A DNA stretch of 33,786 nucleotides from Bernardetia sp. (GTDB taxonomy: Bacteria > Bacteroidota > Bacteroidia > Cytophagales > Bernardetiaceae): contig NZ_JAHDIG010000054.1 in the NCBI RefSeq assembly GCF_020630935.1, positions 1-33,786 of the forward strand. The letters are read 5' to 3'. Every line of letters starts with the position of its first letter. The stretch's first letter is position 1. Shown in pieces: positions 3,262-12,090 of this stretch. The position numbers and the translations under genes were made by a program. The notes under the pieces were generated by a model. The model was not told the DNA's origin, ran no database searches, and saw only the letters and a list, made by a program, of their open reading frames with translations.

Positions 3262-5043
3262 TTACTTTCTAATAAAATATACTTTCTTAATTTGGTTATT
3301 TTCTATTTTATAGATAGCCACAGCCTCAAACGTTTCCATTCCTTGCATTCCACTGACTTTTTCGTGGTCAATGACTGTATTTCCTAATACAATTCTGTTG
3401 ACTAATTGACAGTGTAAGTTGGGAGAATTTTTAAATAACTTTTTATAATTTTCTCTCATCCATTCTTTGCCTTTTCCATAAGATTGATTTGGGAAAAGAT
3501 AGATTTCAACATCCTCATCGTAAGGCTTTACAAATTTTTCTAAATCTCCATTATTATAGGCTTCTAGTTGAGCTTGTGCTAACTGTGCTGCAACAGGGTT
3601 ATCATTTGGAAGGATAGAAATAGGTTGAGTTGCTTTGTTAAATTTTACATTTTTAGCTCCAAAATTAGATATTTCAAAGCCTGTAATATTCTTTTTTTCG
3701 TCTTCTAAAAAGTTTATCGTTACATAAAAGCTAATTATGCCTTCAAATTTATTTTCTCCAGTTCTTTTTAGCTCAATCGTACCAAGTCTGTCGTGTTGCA
3801 TAAATAAATTTTCATCTTTTATAGCGACTTCATAATTTGTATTGAGTTCAGAACTATAATAATTTCCAACAAACTTATTTATATCTGATTGATAAACTTC
3901 TTCATTTGAATTGTCGGTTTTGGGCTGTTGTACGGTTTCTTTTTGAGGTTCAAAATCATCTTTTAGATAAAATTCTGCGATTTTCAATCCGTTGCCTAGT
4001 CTGTCAAAATCAATATCATTACTAAGTAGAATAACAGAAAATTCTTTTTCTGGAAATCTGACTAAATAGCTTCTAAACCCTGCATCACCTCCAGTGTGAT
4101 TGTATAATTTTATACCACGATAATTTCTTACAAACTGTCCTTTGGCGTGGTAAATAGTGTCTCCATTCAGAATAGCTAGAATATTTGGTTTTCCATCGTC
4201 TAACAGAGAAATTTCGTTATATCTCTCAATAAGTTTTGGGTCGCCAACAATAGGTTTTTCAAAATTCATTGTCCATTTCGCTAAATCTTCAGCAGTTGTG
4301 AAAACACTTGTAGCTCCAACATTTGAATAATTTAGCTTTCTCTTTTCATATTTTTTATCTTCAAGTTCATACGAATAGGCTCTGTTCTTTACAATTTTTT
4401 GATGGTCGTCATACACTAAAGAGTTTGTCATTGCTAGAGGTTGAAAAATATTTTTCTGTACATATTCTGCAAAAGACATTTTCGAAACTCTACTGACAAT
4501 TTCTGCTAAAAGAGTAAAACCTGTATTGCTATACTGAAATTGAGTTCCTACTGGAAAGTTTAACTCTTTTTGCATACTAACCATTTTCAAAATTTGTTCA
4601 GTAGTTATCACATCGTCCATTCTCCAACCTGCTAAAGTTAGTAATGACCATTGGTCTTTCAGTCCACTTGTATGAGAACACAAATGACGAATAGTGATAG
4701 GCTTGTCAAAGCTGGGAAGTTCTGGGATATATTTTTGTACATTATCATCTAATGAAATTTTTCCTTCTTTTTCTAAAAGATAAATAGCAAAAGTCGTAAA
4801 CTGTTTGGATACAGAAGCTACGTGAAAAACAGTTTGGGGAGTAATGGGAATATCATATTCCATATTAGCCAAACCATATCCTTTTTTGAATACAATTTTG
4901 CCATCCTTAACAACTGTAATAGCTACTCCTGCACTTTGAGAATTATATTGAGAAAATAAGCTATCTATCTGCTTATCTTGAGCAAAACAATGTGTGCTTA
5001 CCAAAAAACAGAAGAGAAAGAAAAATTTGATTTTAAATTTCAT
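3262..5043 (-). CDS. Exported serine hydrolase (class C beta-lactamase family) with C-terminal NTF2-like domain
   Basis: 593 aa with a signal peptide (1-21, ending CFAQ). The catalytic domain (about 25-355) has the three penicillin-binding/beta-lactamase motifs: S77-V-S-K80 with nucleophile Ser77, Y171-S-N173, and H316-T-G-G319 in place of KTG. HTGG is usual in the esterase/DD-peptidase-like branch, so true beta-lactamase activity is not implied. A linker/sandwich domain (about 360-475) resembles DUF3471. Residues about 485-593 (AQAQLEAYNNGDLEKFVKPY onward) look like a SnoaL/NTF2-like fold. Periplasmic hydrolysis of an ester or D-amino-acid peptide is inferred; the substrate is unknown. Monocistronic, convergent with the YHS gene. 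Confidence 0.85.
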   Translation of the reverse strand: MKFKIKFFFLFCFLVSTHCFAQDKQIDSLFSQYNSQSAGVAITVVKDGKIVFKKGYGLANMEYDIPITPQTVFHVASVSKQFTTFAIYLLEKEGKISLDDNVQKYIPELPSFDKPITIRHLCSHTSGLKDQWSLLTLAGWRMDDVITTEQILKMVSMQKELNFPVGTQFQYSNTGFTLLAEIVSRVSKMSFAEYVQKNIFQPLAMTNSLVYDDHQKIVKNRAYSYELEDKKYEKRKLNYSNVGATSVFTTAEDLAKWTMNFEKPIVGDPKLIERYNEISLLDDGKPNILAILNGDTIYHAKGQFVRNYRGIKLYNHTGGDAGFRSYLVRFPEKEFSVILLSNDIDFDRLGNGLKIAEFYLKDDFEPQKETVQQPKTDNSNEEVYQSDINKFVGNYYSSELNTNYEVAIKDENLFMQHDRLGTIELKRTGENKFEGIISFYVTINFLEDEKKNITGFEISNFGAKNVKFNKATQPISILPNDNPVAAQLAQAQLEAYNNGDLEKFVKPYDEDVEIYLFPNQSYGKGKEWMRENYKKLFKNSPNLHCQLVNRIVLGNTVIDHEKVSGMQGMETFEAVAIYKIENNQIKKVYFIRK

Positions 5044-9094: not shown

Positions 9095-9967
9095 TTATAA
9101 AGTCAGCCAACGCACTAAAGGCAGTAATTCATTTTCCCATTTCCAATCATAAGCACTCAAGTAAAGAGTTTCTCCATTGGGGTAAGAAAGTTCTATCTCA
9201 TAAATATTTGAATTATCAAGCTCCATAATTGGTTTTTCGACATCTTCTACCAAGAGTGGTTCTTTATGAGAAGTTTCTTCATGATGCACATGAACTGTTT
9301 GAAACTCTACCTGTACGCTATTCCATTCTTTTTTGCGAAGCATTCTTTTGAGTTCCTTATTTTGATTGGGTAAATCCCAACCCAAGACATAATTTCCTTG
9401 CATTTCTATCCACTGACTACCTCTTGCTAAATACTTTTTTGTATTTCGATAAGAAATAAGACAAGAAACAGGATTTTGTAATCTATAATTTTGATAGAGA
9501 GAACGCAAACGCAAACGAGCAATAAATGGGTTTTCGACAGACCTAAAACCATGTTGATAGTTTCTAGTAACAATCTGTTTCCAATTTGCCCAAGCAATAC
9601 GGCTTTTTGGAAAAGTGTGTTCGTGAACCGTACGACTTTGCATAGTGCTGCCAATAGCTCCGTGTGTTACCCAAATTGTTTTTCCGTGAAGTTCTCCCTC
9701 CCAAAACGCATTTCCCTTTACCATATAAAGAGTAGCAGAGTAGTGTTCATCTTCTCCCAAAGAATACATTCTAAATGTGCCATTACATTCATAATCCCAT
9801 TCTTCTTCCGTTGCCAGCTCGTCCATCCAAAGAGAAACCTCCGACTGAATAGCATGAAAGCCTTTATTCCGAAGTTCGTTTTTCACATCCAAGGTAGTTG
9901 TAAAACCACGTTTTTTGAAATGCTCGTGTGCTGTAAGTTGTACATCTATCAAAGAGAGTGTTTTCAT
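9095..9967 (-). CDS. WGR-like domain protein, partner of PARP
   Basis: 290 aa, cytosolic. Residues 10-70 look like a winged-helix: TTLDVKNELRNKGF and IQSEVSLWMDELATEEEW, then FRMYSL. Residues about 77-142 follow the WGR layout (lysine-Gly-Asn-x-FWE strand, GKTIWV strand, a G-x-IG turn where WGR would be WGRxG, then a long helix with WANWKQIVTRNYQHGF). Here the WGR triad itself is replaced by THGAIG. The C-terminal half (150-290) is not recognised. It is transcribed with the PARP gene, 89 bp downstream, and the shared WGR-like fold argues they work together, perhaps as a DNA- or protein-binding partner or regulator. The fold assignments are by eye. Confidence 0.6.
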   Translation of the reverse strand: MKTLSLIDVQLTAHEHFKKRGFTTTLDVKNELRNKGFHAIQSEVSLWMDELATEEEWDYECNGTFRMYSLGEDEHYSATLYMVKGNAFWEGELHGKTIWVTHGAIGSTMQSRTVHEHTFPKSRIAWANWKQIVTRNYQHGFRSVENPFIARLRLRSLYQNYRLQNPVSCLISYRNTKKYLARGSQWIEMQGNYVLGWDLPNQNKELKRMLRKKEWNSVQVEFQTVHVHHEETSHKEPLLVEDVEKPIMELDNSNIYEIELSYPNGETLYLSAYDWKWENELLPLVRWLTL

Positions 9968-10010
9968 AGTAGATTATATTTAGAGTTGAGAAGTTTTGTT
10001 TTTTTCAACT

Positions 10011-10035
10011 TTGACAATGGTCTTGACCTTGTCAA
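10011..10035. repeat. TTGAC/GTCAA palindrome between the PARP operon genes
   Basis: TTGACAATGGTC faces GACCTTGTCAA with a 2-nt loop and one bulged base. The same core, with its flanking AACTTTG and CAATAGTT, recurs at 25251-25299 inside the 153-bp element. It lies in the 89-bp gap between the two operon genes. Confidence 0.6.
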
Positions 10036-10056
10036 TAGTTAGTTATTTTAGGAAGA

Positions 10057-11430
10057 TTAATAATGTATCTCTACCAAGTAGCGAATCGTACATTGATTTT
10101 CTTTGTAAATGATATATTCGTTGTTGAGAAGGTCAATACCACCTTTTGCAAAAAGTGAATCGGCTTCCGAACTTTGTTTTTTGAGATTTTCATAGGTCAG
10201 AGAAGCACACCAATCCTCATACTCTTTAATTTTGAGTTGTCTTCCTGTATGGACTTCATAAATGGCTAAAAATGCTTTTTTGTCATTGCCACTCGTCCAA
10301 AACGAGCCTGCTAGTGAGGTATAGTTTAATGATTTTCGGCATTTGTCGGCAAAATATAATCCGTAGCCAAACATTTTTCCAGTAATGAGTGCATTGGTAG
10401 GACGCAAAACTAAGCCTGTTTTTAAGATAGAAAGCCAGTTTTCATTTCGGCTACCATGCCAAAGTAAATCAGTTGTTCTGTATTTGCTTTTTCGCAGAGC
10501 ATTTGTAAATATTTGTTCTTGGGCGATGTCTTTTACTGAATATGCGTTTACAAACTTGCCTACCTCTTCTTGCATCATTTTCTTAATACGTTTTATTTGG
10601 AGAGCATCTTCTGGTTTTTTTTCATCCAAAATATCGACTTCTATGCCGAGTGTATCCAAAAGTGTAGTATCTGTTTTCCTTGATAATGGTGTGCTTTTAT
10701 AAGATTTTGCCTGTTGCTGTCTCAGTTCTACCTCCCCACGCATTACATCAAGTGTTTCTTGTTCGTATCTCAAAATTTGCCTTGCCTGCTGAATTATCTT
10801 TTTTGTAACAGTTTTTCCTGCTGAATATTCTAAAAGGTGGTTTTGTACAGTTTTCATTGCTCTAGGAATGATGCCATAGAGTTCTATTAGTAGTGCGTTA
10901 AAACTTGTCGTATCAAAGTTTTCTACATTTTTTTGAGTAATCTTATGAGATTTAAAATCTACTTTTTTAGCCAAACTGTCTAATACATTTTGAGCTTCCT
11001 CTACTTGTGCCATCGTAACTTCGGCAGCCGAAACTTCATAACTTTGGAATAAAGAACGTTGTGAGTAGCGTGTAAGATGACGAAAAAGTTCACGTACTTC
11101 TCCATTTTTGATAGCAGACCACGAAGCCAAAGAAGAATTTGCGTTTTTTTGAGATGATTTGTTTCCTAACTCGTCTAAGAAAAGGTGTGTTACATCTTTG
11201 TAGCCTTTCCGTACTTTTTCTCTGTATTTGCTTTCCCACTCGTACATAGAATATTCGTTTACGGCTGCACGCTGTCCCACTCTTCCATAAGAAACTGAAA
11301 ATATTTCGTCAGAAACTTGGCGCATTTCATAATATTTGTTGTTATTGACAGCCGTTACCATTACGAGTTTGGCTACTCTAAGCGTTTTGAAACCATCTAC
11401 TTTTACATTGGTAGAAATTAAATTTTGCAT
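10057..11430 (-). CDS. PARP-type poly/mono-ADP-ribosyltransferase with WGR domain
   Basis: 457 aa, cytosolic. Layout: WGR domain (about 20-80, with SVSYGRVGQ and KVRKGYKDVT), alpha-helical PARP regulatory-like region (about 125-240), then the catalytic domain (about 300-457). The full H-Y-E triad of true PARPs is visible: His325 in WHGSR, Tyr359 in GYGLYFAD, and Glu438 in NEYIIY. KSLNY (366-370) supplies the nicotinamide-stacking Ser and Tyr. By family knowledge the enzyme transfers ADP-ribose from NAD+ to protein or nucleic acid, usually in response to DNA breaks sensed through WGR. No zinc fingers, so it resembles PARP2/3 rather than PARP1. No macrodomain hydrolase is seen in the window. 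PARPs are uncommon in bacteria. First gene of a two-gene operon. Confidence 0.92.
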   Translation of the reverse strand: MQNLISTNVKVDGFKTLRVAKLVMVTAVNNNKYYEMRQVSDEIFSVSYGRVGQRAAVNEYSMYEWESKYREKVRKGYKDVTHLFLDELGNKSSQKNANSSLASWSAIKNGEVRELFRHLTRYSQRSLFQSYEVSAAEVTMAQVEEAQNVLDSLAKKVDFKSHKITQKNVENFDTTSFNALLIELYGIIPRAMKTVQNHLLEYSAGKTVTKKIIQQARQILRYEQETLDVMRGEVELRQQQAKSYKSTPLSRKTDTTLLDTLGIEVDILDEKKPEDALQIKRIKKMMQEEVGKFVNAYSVKDIAQEQIFTNALRKSKYRTTDLLWHGSRNENWLSILKTGLVLRPTNALITGKMFGYGLYFADKCRKSLNYTSLAGSFWTSGNDKKAFLAIYEVHTGRQLKIKEYEDWCASLTYENLKKQSSEADSLFAKGGIDLLNNEYIIYKENQCTIRYLVEIHY

Positions 11431-11661
11431 AATTGATAGATAAATTTGGTGTACAAGAAAATGATGTTTTTTTTAGCAATACTTTTAAAATCTCATCTTT
11501 AAAAGCTAATTTAAGAAATTAATGCTAATTATTATAGCAATTACTAATTATTTATACAACAAATTTAACAGAGTAGGTCGTAATGTATATGAGGACTAAA
11601 AAAAATGGCAAAATTATTTTGTGATTTTGAAAAAACTGTATTCCATTAAGTTTTGAAAACT

Positions 11662-12090
11662 ATGAAAGTCAATCACATTTTTACTGTTTTTTTGTTGAGT
11701 ACAATAATAGCTTTCGCTACAGCTTGTACTGAGCAAGACGAGCAACCTAAAACATCTGATACTCTGCTTTATCTTTGTAGTTATCAAAAAGAAGGCACAA
11801 CTGATTCTTTAGAAAATCCTTGTGAGGGGAATACTTTTATCAAACATTTGTCTGGTGAAGGAGTAGTAAAGTATGATTCTGCATTGAATAGTTATGCTAT
11901 TACAAATCACGTAGAAGGCACGATTGATTGTATTATTGTTACGCTTCTTTGTGGAGAAAATTATAGCTCATTGGTAGATAAAGAAATTGAATACTCCTGT
12001 GATTATTACGAATATGAAAGGCTTTATGAATTTCCTTTAGTTGGAACAGAAATTTTTGTAGCTAAAAACATAGATTATTCAGTCAAGTGA
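11662..12090 (+). CDS. Small lipoprotein, unknown family
   Basis: 142 aa from the ATG at 11662; an in-frame TTG at 11653 is a less likely start. The N-terminus is a lipoprotein signal (FLLSTIIAFATAC, Cys22) followed by TEQDEQPK. The mature part has four cysteines in roughly paired spacing (LCSYQKEG, NPCEGN, IDCIIVTLLCGE, YSCDYYEYE), probably disulfide-bonded in the periplasm. No family recognised. It is followed 17 bp later by the 315-bp MITE-like element. Confidence 0.7.
   Translation: MKVNHIFTVFLLSTIIAFATACTEQDEQPKTSDTLLYLCSYQKEGTTDSLENPCEGNTFIKHLSGEGVVKYDSALNSYAITNHVEGTIDCIIVTLLCGENYSSLVDKEIEYSCDYYEYERLYEFPLVGTEIFVAKNIDYSVK

Follow-up and report, generated by a model that had tools for sequence, protein, structure and literature searches.

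A bacterial PARP gene of Bernardetia and its conserved winged-helix neighbour: a candidate two-gene ADP-ribosylation unit of Bacteroidota and phages

PARPs of the human PARP2 and PARP3 type consist of a WGR domain, a helical domain (HD) and an ADP-ribosyltransferase (ART) catalytic domain. In eukaryotes, PARPs are placed or steered by the zinc fingers of PARP1 or by HPF1, a separate cofactor of PARP1 and PARP2. Toxin-antitoxin and defence systems based on ADP-ribosylation, DarTG among them, join an ADP-ribosyltransferase to a partner gene. For bacteria, the consulted portion of PMC4245714 counts 28 PARP homologues in 27 species and reports DNA-break-stimulated activity of the Herpetosiphon PARP. 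Cytophagales PARPs have been described as 'Clade 1.1', with WGR and ART recognised by Pfam and the helical domain only through modelling; the accessible portions of that paper name no partner for them, and the words 'operon' and 'winged' occur 0 times in its main text (PMC5966428). The open-access literature that we searched contained no description of a winged-helix partner of bacterial PARPs, and a mention in reviews is possible. Here we describe a PARP gene of Bernardetia sp. and the gene that follows it, which encodes a 290-aa protein with a winged helix. Both lie on a contig of 33,786 nucleotides (NCBI RefSeq assembly GCF_020630935.1, contig NZ_JAHDIG010000054.1), which we analysed in its whole length and call the window; it is one (G000:C54) of the 153 contigs of a 4.75-Mb genome. 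Genomes, contigs, loci and families are given below by our labels G, C, L and f.

The 457-aa protein matched Pfam PARP at 3.5e-24 and 85.9 bits (cut-off 26.7) and Pfam WGR at 21.8 bits, slightly below the cut-off of 22, and Pfam PARP_reg gave no match to it at E ≤ 1. In its predicted structure (pLDDT 86.1), a helical domain lies between WGR and ART, and the best fold matches in the PDB were PARP2 and PARP1 chains comprising WGR, HD and ART from DNA-break complexes, with PARP2 6x0l (E 5.9e-19) and PARP1 4dqy at the top. Two residues of the PARP2 catalytic triad align with H325 and Y359, and the third aligns, separately, with E438. All three residues were invariant across 31 aligned PARP rows from Bacteroidota, Bacillota and one metagenome-assembled genome (MAG) labelled Thalassovita. 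With an ART domain above the Pfam cut-off and an intact triad, the protein is an H-Y-E class ADP-ribosyltransferase, and the model gives it the PARP1-3-type architecture, WGR and helical domain being predicted ahead of ART. Pfam, alignment and model thus bear out the first-pass annotation of the window, a reading of the DNA alone that had proposed a PARP with WGR, helical domain and intact triad here. The enzyme has the domain order and triad of human PARP2 and PARP3; it differs from them in being bacterial, in lacking a PARP_reg match and in being encoded together with a winged-helix protein, and its DNA dependence is predicted. It also fits the description of Clade 1.1 in the accessible portions of PMC5966428.

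No Pfam family was found above cut-off in the 290-aa partner, whose gene begins 89 bp beyond that of the PARP. Its model (mean pLDDT 90.9, pTM 0.76) resolves three domains. Residues 6-69 (pLDDT about 89-96) are predicted to form helix-strand-helix-helix-strand-strand, i.e. a winged helix, residues 77-144 strands and a long helix in a WGR-like fold, and residues 152-289 a third domain. Foldseek returned no match to the model at E ≤ 0.001. The winged helix gave local fold matches of low rmsd (2mh2, TMt 0.72; BlaI 1p6r, 0.60), among them the regulators BlaI, PadR and SqrR, and human PARP1 chains with WGR matched weakly (E 0.16-0.18, rmsd ~14). Sliding-clamp chains occupied the top Foldseek rows and were dismissed as spurious (probability ≤ 0.3, TM-scores ~0.1, rmsd ~15). 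The WGR assignment is supported by a profile of the partner and four relatives, which matched structure 2ra8 at profile positions 84-145 with E 1e-5, and by Pfam WGR above cut-off at the same place in two of three other long forms (L112 and L122, 29.2 and 25.8 bits); the Pfam scan of the third, L134, gave no WGR match. One of the five members of alignment A4 reached 3e-07 in this region, and the partner aligned in register with the PARP's own WGR with a profile-profile E of 0.0028, but at a low probability of 10.9. Model and profile matches support the earlier proposal of a WGR-like fold with a possible winged helix.

The partner appears to be composed of domain types that bind nucleic acid elsewhere. 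With MolR-like and other bacterial WGR proteins, such as 2ra8 (Q64V53_BACFR), it shares a predicted, divergent WGR domain, but here this domain follows an N-terminal winged helix that belongs to no named family, and the protein is tied to a PARP. The partner would resemble HPF1 in being a second protein that acts with a PARP, by analogy only: its fold is winged helix, WGR and alpha/beta domain, and profile searches of the PDB with partner profiles retrieved no HPF1 chain at E ≤ 1. Within the genus, both genes are under purifying selection, which is strong for the partner (dN/dS 0.049-0.103 over 21 pairs; PARP 0.043-0.230; dS above 1 in some pairs).

To see how far the pairing extends, we compared PARP loci at increasing distance. 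PARP and partner were adjacent in all seven sampled genomes of the genus. The sister genus (G007) has the winged-helix part alone, as a 108-aa ORF 16 bp past the PARP. Elsewhere in the order, 24 more PARP loci (L025-L048) were compared, and 16 of them have a winged helix in the 1.5-kb flanks. An alignment of PARPs yielded 75 named loci, 58 of which were counted as Bacteroidota-like (L099-L150, L155 and L161-L165; L155, labelled Thalassovita, and L127, labelled only 'bacterium', were included for their place among Bacteroidota on the PARP tree), the remaining 17 being 16 Bacillota and one locus labelled Nanoarchaeia. At 47 of these 58, a winged helix is encoded downstream on the same strand. 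The distance from the PARP match to the start of this domain is 19-536 bp in 46 loci and 1215 bp in L163. The eleven loci without a linked winged helix are L105, L113, L117, L119, L120, L121, L123, L127, L128, L129 and L149, two of which lie near a contig end (2 bp left in L117, 601 bp in L127). The cassette proposed by the first-pass annotation has thus held up, since the neighbour recurs beside PARP in relatives and a WGR fold is predicted for it.

The free winged-helix protein is usually only ~80-100 aa long: 41 of 50 linked winged-helix domains are in short forms and nine in long ones. We therefore rejected WGR as the shared feature of the pairing. Within the partner, it is the winged helix that forms the conserved core, and the WGR is an extension. 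That the pair is confined to the genus was likewise rejected, as the winged helix adjoins PARP in other families too. When all ORFs of the 75 loci were clustered and the top 30 clusters ranked, no neighbour family was larger than the winged helix, which BLASTP placed at 45 loci and which spanned families. The next three clusters (18, 17 and 13 loci) reflected Spirosomataceae-like synteny plus one Saprospiraceae member, and the rest comprised at most seven loci each, one of which, of oxidoreductase type, also spans families. Contexts differ even within the genus: one set of flanks is common to G001, G002 and G006 and another to G003 and G004, G005 has only the upstream side of the latter set, and in the stretches compared the window flanks have a single gene in common with other members (lipoprotein-like, 55.7%). 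The pair was kept together while its neighbours changed. In a PARP tree built from 71 of the 75 sequences, after removal of L134 and of rows below 330 aa, the linked winged-helix label needs 4 changes, against 21.9 for shuffled labels. PARP and winged-helix protein distances correlate (r 0.85, n = 44 loci; none of 999 permutations as high), which is expected for any two co-inherited genes, since the pair is mostly co-inherited.

Several features of these loci are recorded in their own right. Second winged-helix copies stand in tandem or flank the PARP in Fibrisoma and Spirosoma endophyticum loci (L133, 7241-7486 and 7698-7943; L136; L165, 5496-5741). An unnamed family with a motif like ANRLLNVELGLYLL recurs near winged-helix genes, with or without PARP, in Spirosomataceae-like genomes (L079, L081, L082 and neighbours of L126-L165). 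The PARP frame of L134 (G100) has one in-frame stop, and its long partner gene is intact. Among short winged-helix proteins outside Spirosomataceae-like loci, 13 of 18 end in [FY]-S-x-[N/S] (L103, L104, L106-L108, L110, L111, L114, L115, L118, L124, L125 and L145) and 16 of 18 end in N; the ending, which may be a docking tail, occurs in none of 23 Spirosomataceae-like short proteins.

We then asked whether the two genes keep company across whole genomes. PARP above the Pfam cut-off was found in 39 of 390 genomes of the order and in six of 395 of the phylum, in agreement with the consulted part of PMC4245714 and with the earlier remark that such enzymes are uncommon in bacteria. Counting all matches in the order sample, PARP was present in 41 genomes, the winged helix in 48 and both in 36; the winged helix thus occurs in 36 of 41 PARP genomes versus 12 of 349 PARP-less ones. 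By genus, the counts are 18 of 22 versus 2 of 107 (Fisher 2.9e-16, phylogeny ignored). The five genomes with PARP only are G125, G130, G156, G195 and G211, G156 and G195 being below the Pfam cut-off. Among the 36 genomes with both, the genes are adjacent in 28 and unlinked in eight (seven of family f14, and G124 of f3). In f14, the long form lies away from PARP in 5/5 regions examined (G054, G067, G105, G141 and G177, the last without PARP). The phylum sample overlaps that of the order; all six of its genomes with PARP above cut-off (G000, G037, G402, G423, G516 and G611) have the winged helix beside it, four of them (G402, G423, G516 and G611, in two families) being new. Its five sub-threshold PARP matches had no winged helix, and in G052 the winged helix was found without PARP. 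A match in G420 was discarded as false, its frame reading as a glycosidase-like enzyme that covers no winged helix.

The pair also occurs in phages. By tblastn, PARP was found in 15 phage records, including Cellulophaga phages and the 462-kb uncultured huge phage LR756500, in which a winged-helix homologue lies ~9 kb from PARP. Cellulophaga phage phi17:2 has three genes in a row: 16 bp after PARP (gp031) comes a winged helix (gp030), and then DNA ligase (gp029). The 154-aa hypothetical protein gp030 scored 38.6 bits with the winged-helix profile (E 4.7e-10 over 12,848 fragments), whereas none of 2000 shuffles exceeded 9.6 bits. From IMG/VR, 108 PARP relatives were obtained and 80 kept as viral loci; a winged helix lay within 5 kb of PARP in seven of these, always on the PARP strand, five downstream and two upstream, and anywhere in nine of the 50 longest PARP-bearing viral records. 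A DNA pattern of the winged-helix core, built from the PARP-linked family without requiring PARP, hit six viral contigs, four of them with PARP, three of which were already in the PARP set. A close search of viral contigs for relatives of the 290-aa partner found none. In L250, the phage winged-helix protein (4414-4998, a 195-aa frame directly before the PARP match) has a C-terminal part that resembles acyl-carrier-type sequence by eye; Pfam gave no match.

A different neighbour is common elsewhere. Near 43 of the 80 viral PARPs, a cluster of small macrodomain-like genes was found (one example scanned: Pfam Macro 21.3 bits, cut-off 22), and a cluster of its own contains macrodomain-like genes near PARP at seven of the 75 named loci, namely six of the 17 non-Bacteroidota loci, which are clostridial, and one Microscilla locus (example: 21.4 bits, cut-off 22). 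None of the seven viral loci with a winged helix was among the 40 of 43 macrodomain loci compared. Clostridial and viral PARPs thus also have a recurring neighbour, but it is macrodomain-like instead of a winged helix. The macrodomain-like neighbours at L206-L260 and others, and at L151-L154, L157, L166 and L123, represent a different PARP pairing. Further clusters near viral PARPs, each identified from one scanned example, were polymerase III alpha at 30 loci and three kinds of ligase, namely NAD-dependent DNA ligase and RNA ligase at 10 loci each and ATP-dependent DNA ligase at 9. PARPs in plasmids (20 records) were distant, at 22.9-40.9% identity.

The features of the locus are collected in Table 1. 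Because the ORF upstream of PARP is divergent, the next listed ORF (at least 80 aa) downstream of the partner is 478 bp off and no terminator-like site lies between the two genes, PARP and partner are likely read from one transcript. An inverted repeat downstream of the partner, suspected by eye, was absent in a repeat search.

Table 1 Features of the PARP locus in the window
Feature	Position	Strand	Basis
Partner gene, 290 aa, three domains	9095..9967	-	ORF, model; strong constraint within genus
Partner C-terminal alpha/beta domain, residues 152-289, no assigned function	9101..9514	-	Model; aligned in 12 long forms (alignment A5)
Partner divergent WGR domain, residues 77-144, motif HGAIG (W and R lost)	9536..9739	-	Profile matches, model
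Partner winged-helix domain, residues 6-69; part conserved beside PARP across Bacteroidota and phages	9761..9952	-	Model, fold match, profiles
Spacer between PARP and partner, 89 bp, without detected terminator-like site	9968..10056	.	Sequence scan
PARP gene, 457 aa (WGR, helical domain, ART; triad H325, Y359, E438)	10057..11430	-	ORF, Pfam, alignment, model, fold match
PARP ART catalytic domain, residues ~263-457	10060..10644	-	Pfam PARP 85.9 bits; model
PARP helical (regulatory-type) domain, residues ~110-261	10648..11103	-	Model; PARP1/PARP2 fold match; no Pfam PARP_reg match
PARP WGR domain, residues ~19-93, motif YGRVG	11152..11376	-	Pfam WGR 21.8 bits; model strands and helix
Palindrome TGCTA-N7-TAGCA in upstream block, 93-109 bp before PARP start, candidate operator	11523..11539	.	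Genus comparison
Strongly conserved upstream block, 93-179 bp before PARP start, likely promoter/regulatory	11523..11609	-	Alignment of seven genus members
Divergent ORF upstream of PARP	11653-12090	opposite direction to PARP	ORF list (at least 80 aa)

From these data we prefer the reading that PARP and partner form a DNA-break-responsive, two-gene ADP-ribosylation unit in which the winged-helix protein is an accessory factor at DNA; we hold it with even confidence. In such a unit, the WGR of PARP would sense DNA ends or nicks and release the autoinhibitory helical domain, whereupon ART would use NAD+. This DNA-dependent activation is inferred from the families to which the domains belong. The winged-helix protein would act on DNA alongside PARP; most probably it would bring the enzyme to a DNA site, keep it there or steer its activity, a role modelled on the PARP1 zinc fingers or HPF1; in the genus of the window, it would add a second, divergent WGR and a third domain. 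Its co-function with PARP, and any physical or functional action on the enzyme, are suggested by the company that the two keep. The accessory-factor reading is the best available because the protein follows PARP through most lineages, persists when unlinked and adjoins PARP in phages, and DNA breaks are the probable setting because of the parts of the PARP and of the ligase and polymerase genes that neighbour PARP in phages.

A number of observations weigh against this reading, the strongest being winged helices without PARP, degenerate PARPs and a winged helix that is not basic in the genus. Twelve genomes of the order, of which G049 is a weak match with a stop, have the winged helix and no PARP; ten of the twelve belong to family f10, which sequence matches place in Spirosomataceae. 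In two further f10 genomes (G313 and G037), the winged helix adjoins a degenerate PARP that has His for the triad Tyr and another residue for the Gly that follows the catalytic His, and that keeps the triad His and Glu. The winged-helix protein is therefore not only a PARP cofactor. Over 38 rows, the net charge of the domain has a median of +1 and a range of -7 to +8 and is thus not uniformly basic, and in the four rows from the genus it is acidic (-7 to -4), so that the evidence for DNA binding by the winged helix is weak. No winged helix was found at any of the 17 other named loci (flanks up to 6 kb, with 460 bp downstream in L151), and 41 of the 50 longest PARP-bearing viral records have none. 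The conserved palindrome upstream, discussed below, also fits a repressor. Short PARP relatives were seen at L089 (2727-3557, minus strand) and L090 (2454-3290, plus strand), in frames of 277-279 aa that miss most of the helical domain; the triad Tyr is His, the Gly after the catalytic His is replaced and an intact winged-helix gene adjoins, and they are possibly decaying or pseudoenzymes.

In the main rival reading, which we regard as unlikely though serious, the winged-helix protein is no PARP cofactor but regulates transcription of its own operon, as a repressor that DNA damage releases. Winged helices are common in bacterial repressors, of which BlaI is one, and BlaI, PadR and SqrR are among the fold matches described above. 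WGR is found in MolR-like transcription factors as well, according to the accessible part of PMC7824862. Free winged-helix copies also persist without PARP. A plausible operator is also at hand: TGCTA-N7-TAGCA is exact before PARP in six of seven genus members (one mismatch in G001), the copy in the window is the only exact one there, and shuffled upstream regions yield an exact copy at ~0.0002 each. This palindrome may belong to another repressor, however, since in half-sites and spacing it matches the Bacteroidota LexA-type SOS box CTAA-N5-TTAG except at one of eight positions; degenerate variants of that box can be functional, as stated in the excerpted text of PMC8565304. No exact box was found upstream of PARP in the seven genus members, and one-mismatch SOS-type boxes in the window were not above chance (24 found, 27.8 expected). 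In the 72 named loci whose upstream sequence reaches at least 200 bp, the exact palindrome occurs only in L099-L101 (Bernardetia, Flexibacter and uncultured Cytophagales MAGs) and L128, with one mismatch in L119, and L128 has both the exact palindrome and an exact SOS box before its PARP, yet no linked winged helix. The gene order speaks against an operon regulator too: every one of the 47 linked named loci has the winged helix after PARP, L165 having an additional copy before it. So does the co-occurrence of the two genes when unlinked (8 of 36 genomes). The palindrome is compatible with regulated expression; as it fits a damage-induced accessory unit and a repressor alike, we let it change the weight of neither.

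A further alternative, which we consider improbable, is that the partner restrains PARP in the manner of an antitoxin, making the pair a toxin-antitoxin or abortive-defence unit. PARP left uncontrolled would deplete NAD+, the gene order is tight with the enzyme first, and the macrodomain-like proteins near PARP at six of 17 non-Bacteroidota loci, at the Microscilla locus and at 43 of 80 viral loci are of eraser type. Against this, three of 39 genomes with PARP above cut-off have no detectable partner (G125, 81% complete, G130 and G211), and in Spirosomataceae-like genomes the partner outlives PARP. Erasers are encoded elsewhere in the genome: profiles for Macro, PARG and ADP_ribosyl_GH matched nothing in the window, as the first-pass annotation had stated for macrodomains and PARG-type hydrolases, but did match one bacterial-type PARG (contig C27), four macrodomains (C57, C8, C29, C1) and three ADP-ribosylglycohydrolases (C3, C2, C60) on other contigs. 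The neighbours in the window are ordinary genes. PADLOC models gave no match to PARP and one to the partner, at E 0.024 only. The pair resembles DarTG in joining an ADP-ribosyltransferase to a partner gene; its partner differs in being no macrodomain, and the defence library gave no useful match. A mobile or defence unit was rejected, given the lack of a useful PADLOC match and of partner relatives in viral contigs by close search. A defence role is not supported, because there is no meaningful defence-family score, the chromosomal neighbours are ordinary and changing, and phages themselves carry the pair. The earlier suggestion of a dedicated DNA-damage or defence unit therefore survives in its first half, which is plausible in view of the WGR-HD-ART architecture, the DNA ligase beside the phi17:2 pair and the upstream palindrome resembling an SOS box. 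The PARP match of G013, like that of G100, has an ADP-ribosylglycohydrolase match ~1-2 kb away. Macrodomain matches were also seen near the unlinked long winged-helix-WGR gene (~1.3 kb in G105, contig C6; 5.6 kb in G054, contigs C34 and C134 being concerned), and in both genomes another lies 3-4 kb from PARP.

Finally, it is very improbable that PARP and winged helix have no functional link and stand together through slow synteny decay, as their mostly joint inheritance and correlated distances over 44 loci could suggest, because flanking genes change and the pair stays, the pair spans Cytophagales, Saprospiraceae-labelled MAGs, two further families of the phylum sample and phages, and co-occurrence persists without linkage.

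Returning to the accessory-factor reading, we put forward a wider proposal with a confidence somewhat short of even. The winged-helix proteins may be an undescribed family of PARP accessory proteins of Bacteroidota and phages, and prokaryotic PARPs may come in at least two kinds of unit, PARP with winged helix in Bacteroidota and some phages, and PARP with macrodomain in some Clostridia and many viruses. Phages like phi17:2 would use the first kind together with DNA ligase at breaks, and the accessory family would do in prokaryotes, by analogy, what HPF1 or the zinc fingers in PARP1 do in eukaryotes.

A partner that follows PARP through most sampled Bacteroidota lineages and into a phage with a named laboratory host offers a specific handle on the function of bacterial PARPs. 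If the winged-helix protein alters the place, the time or the target of PARP action, regulation of PARPs by separate accessory proteins would not be solely eukaryotic, and Cellulophaga phage phi17:2 would be a small system in which to study it. In a group of environmental bacteria and some phages, the usual companion of PARP is an unstudied small protein of a DNA-binding kind, a pairing that suggests joint action.

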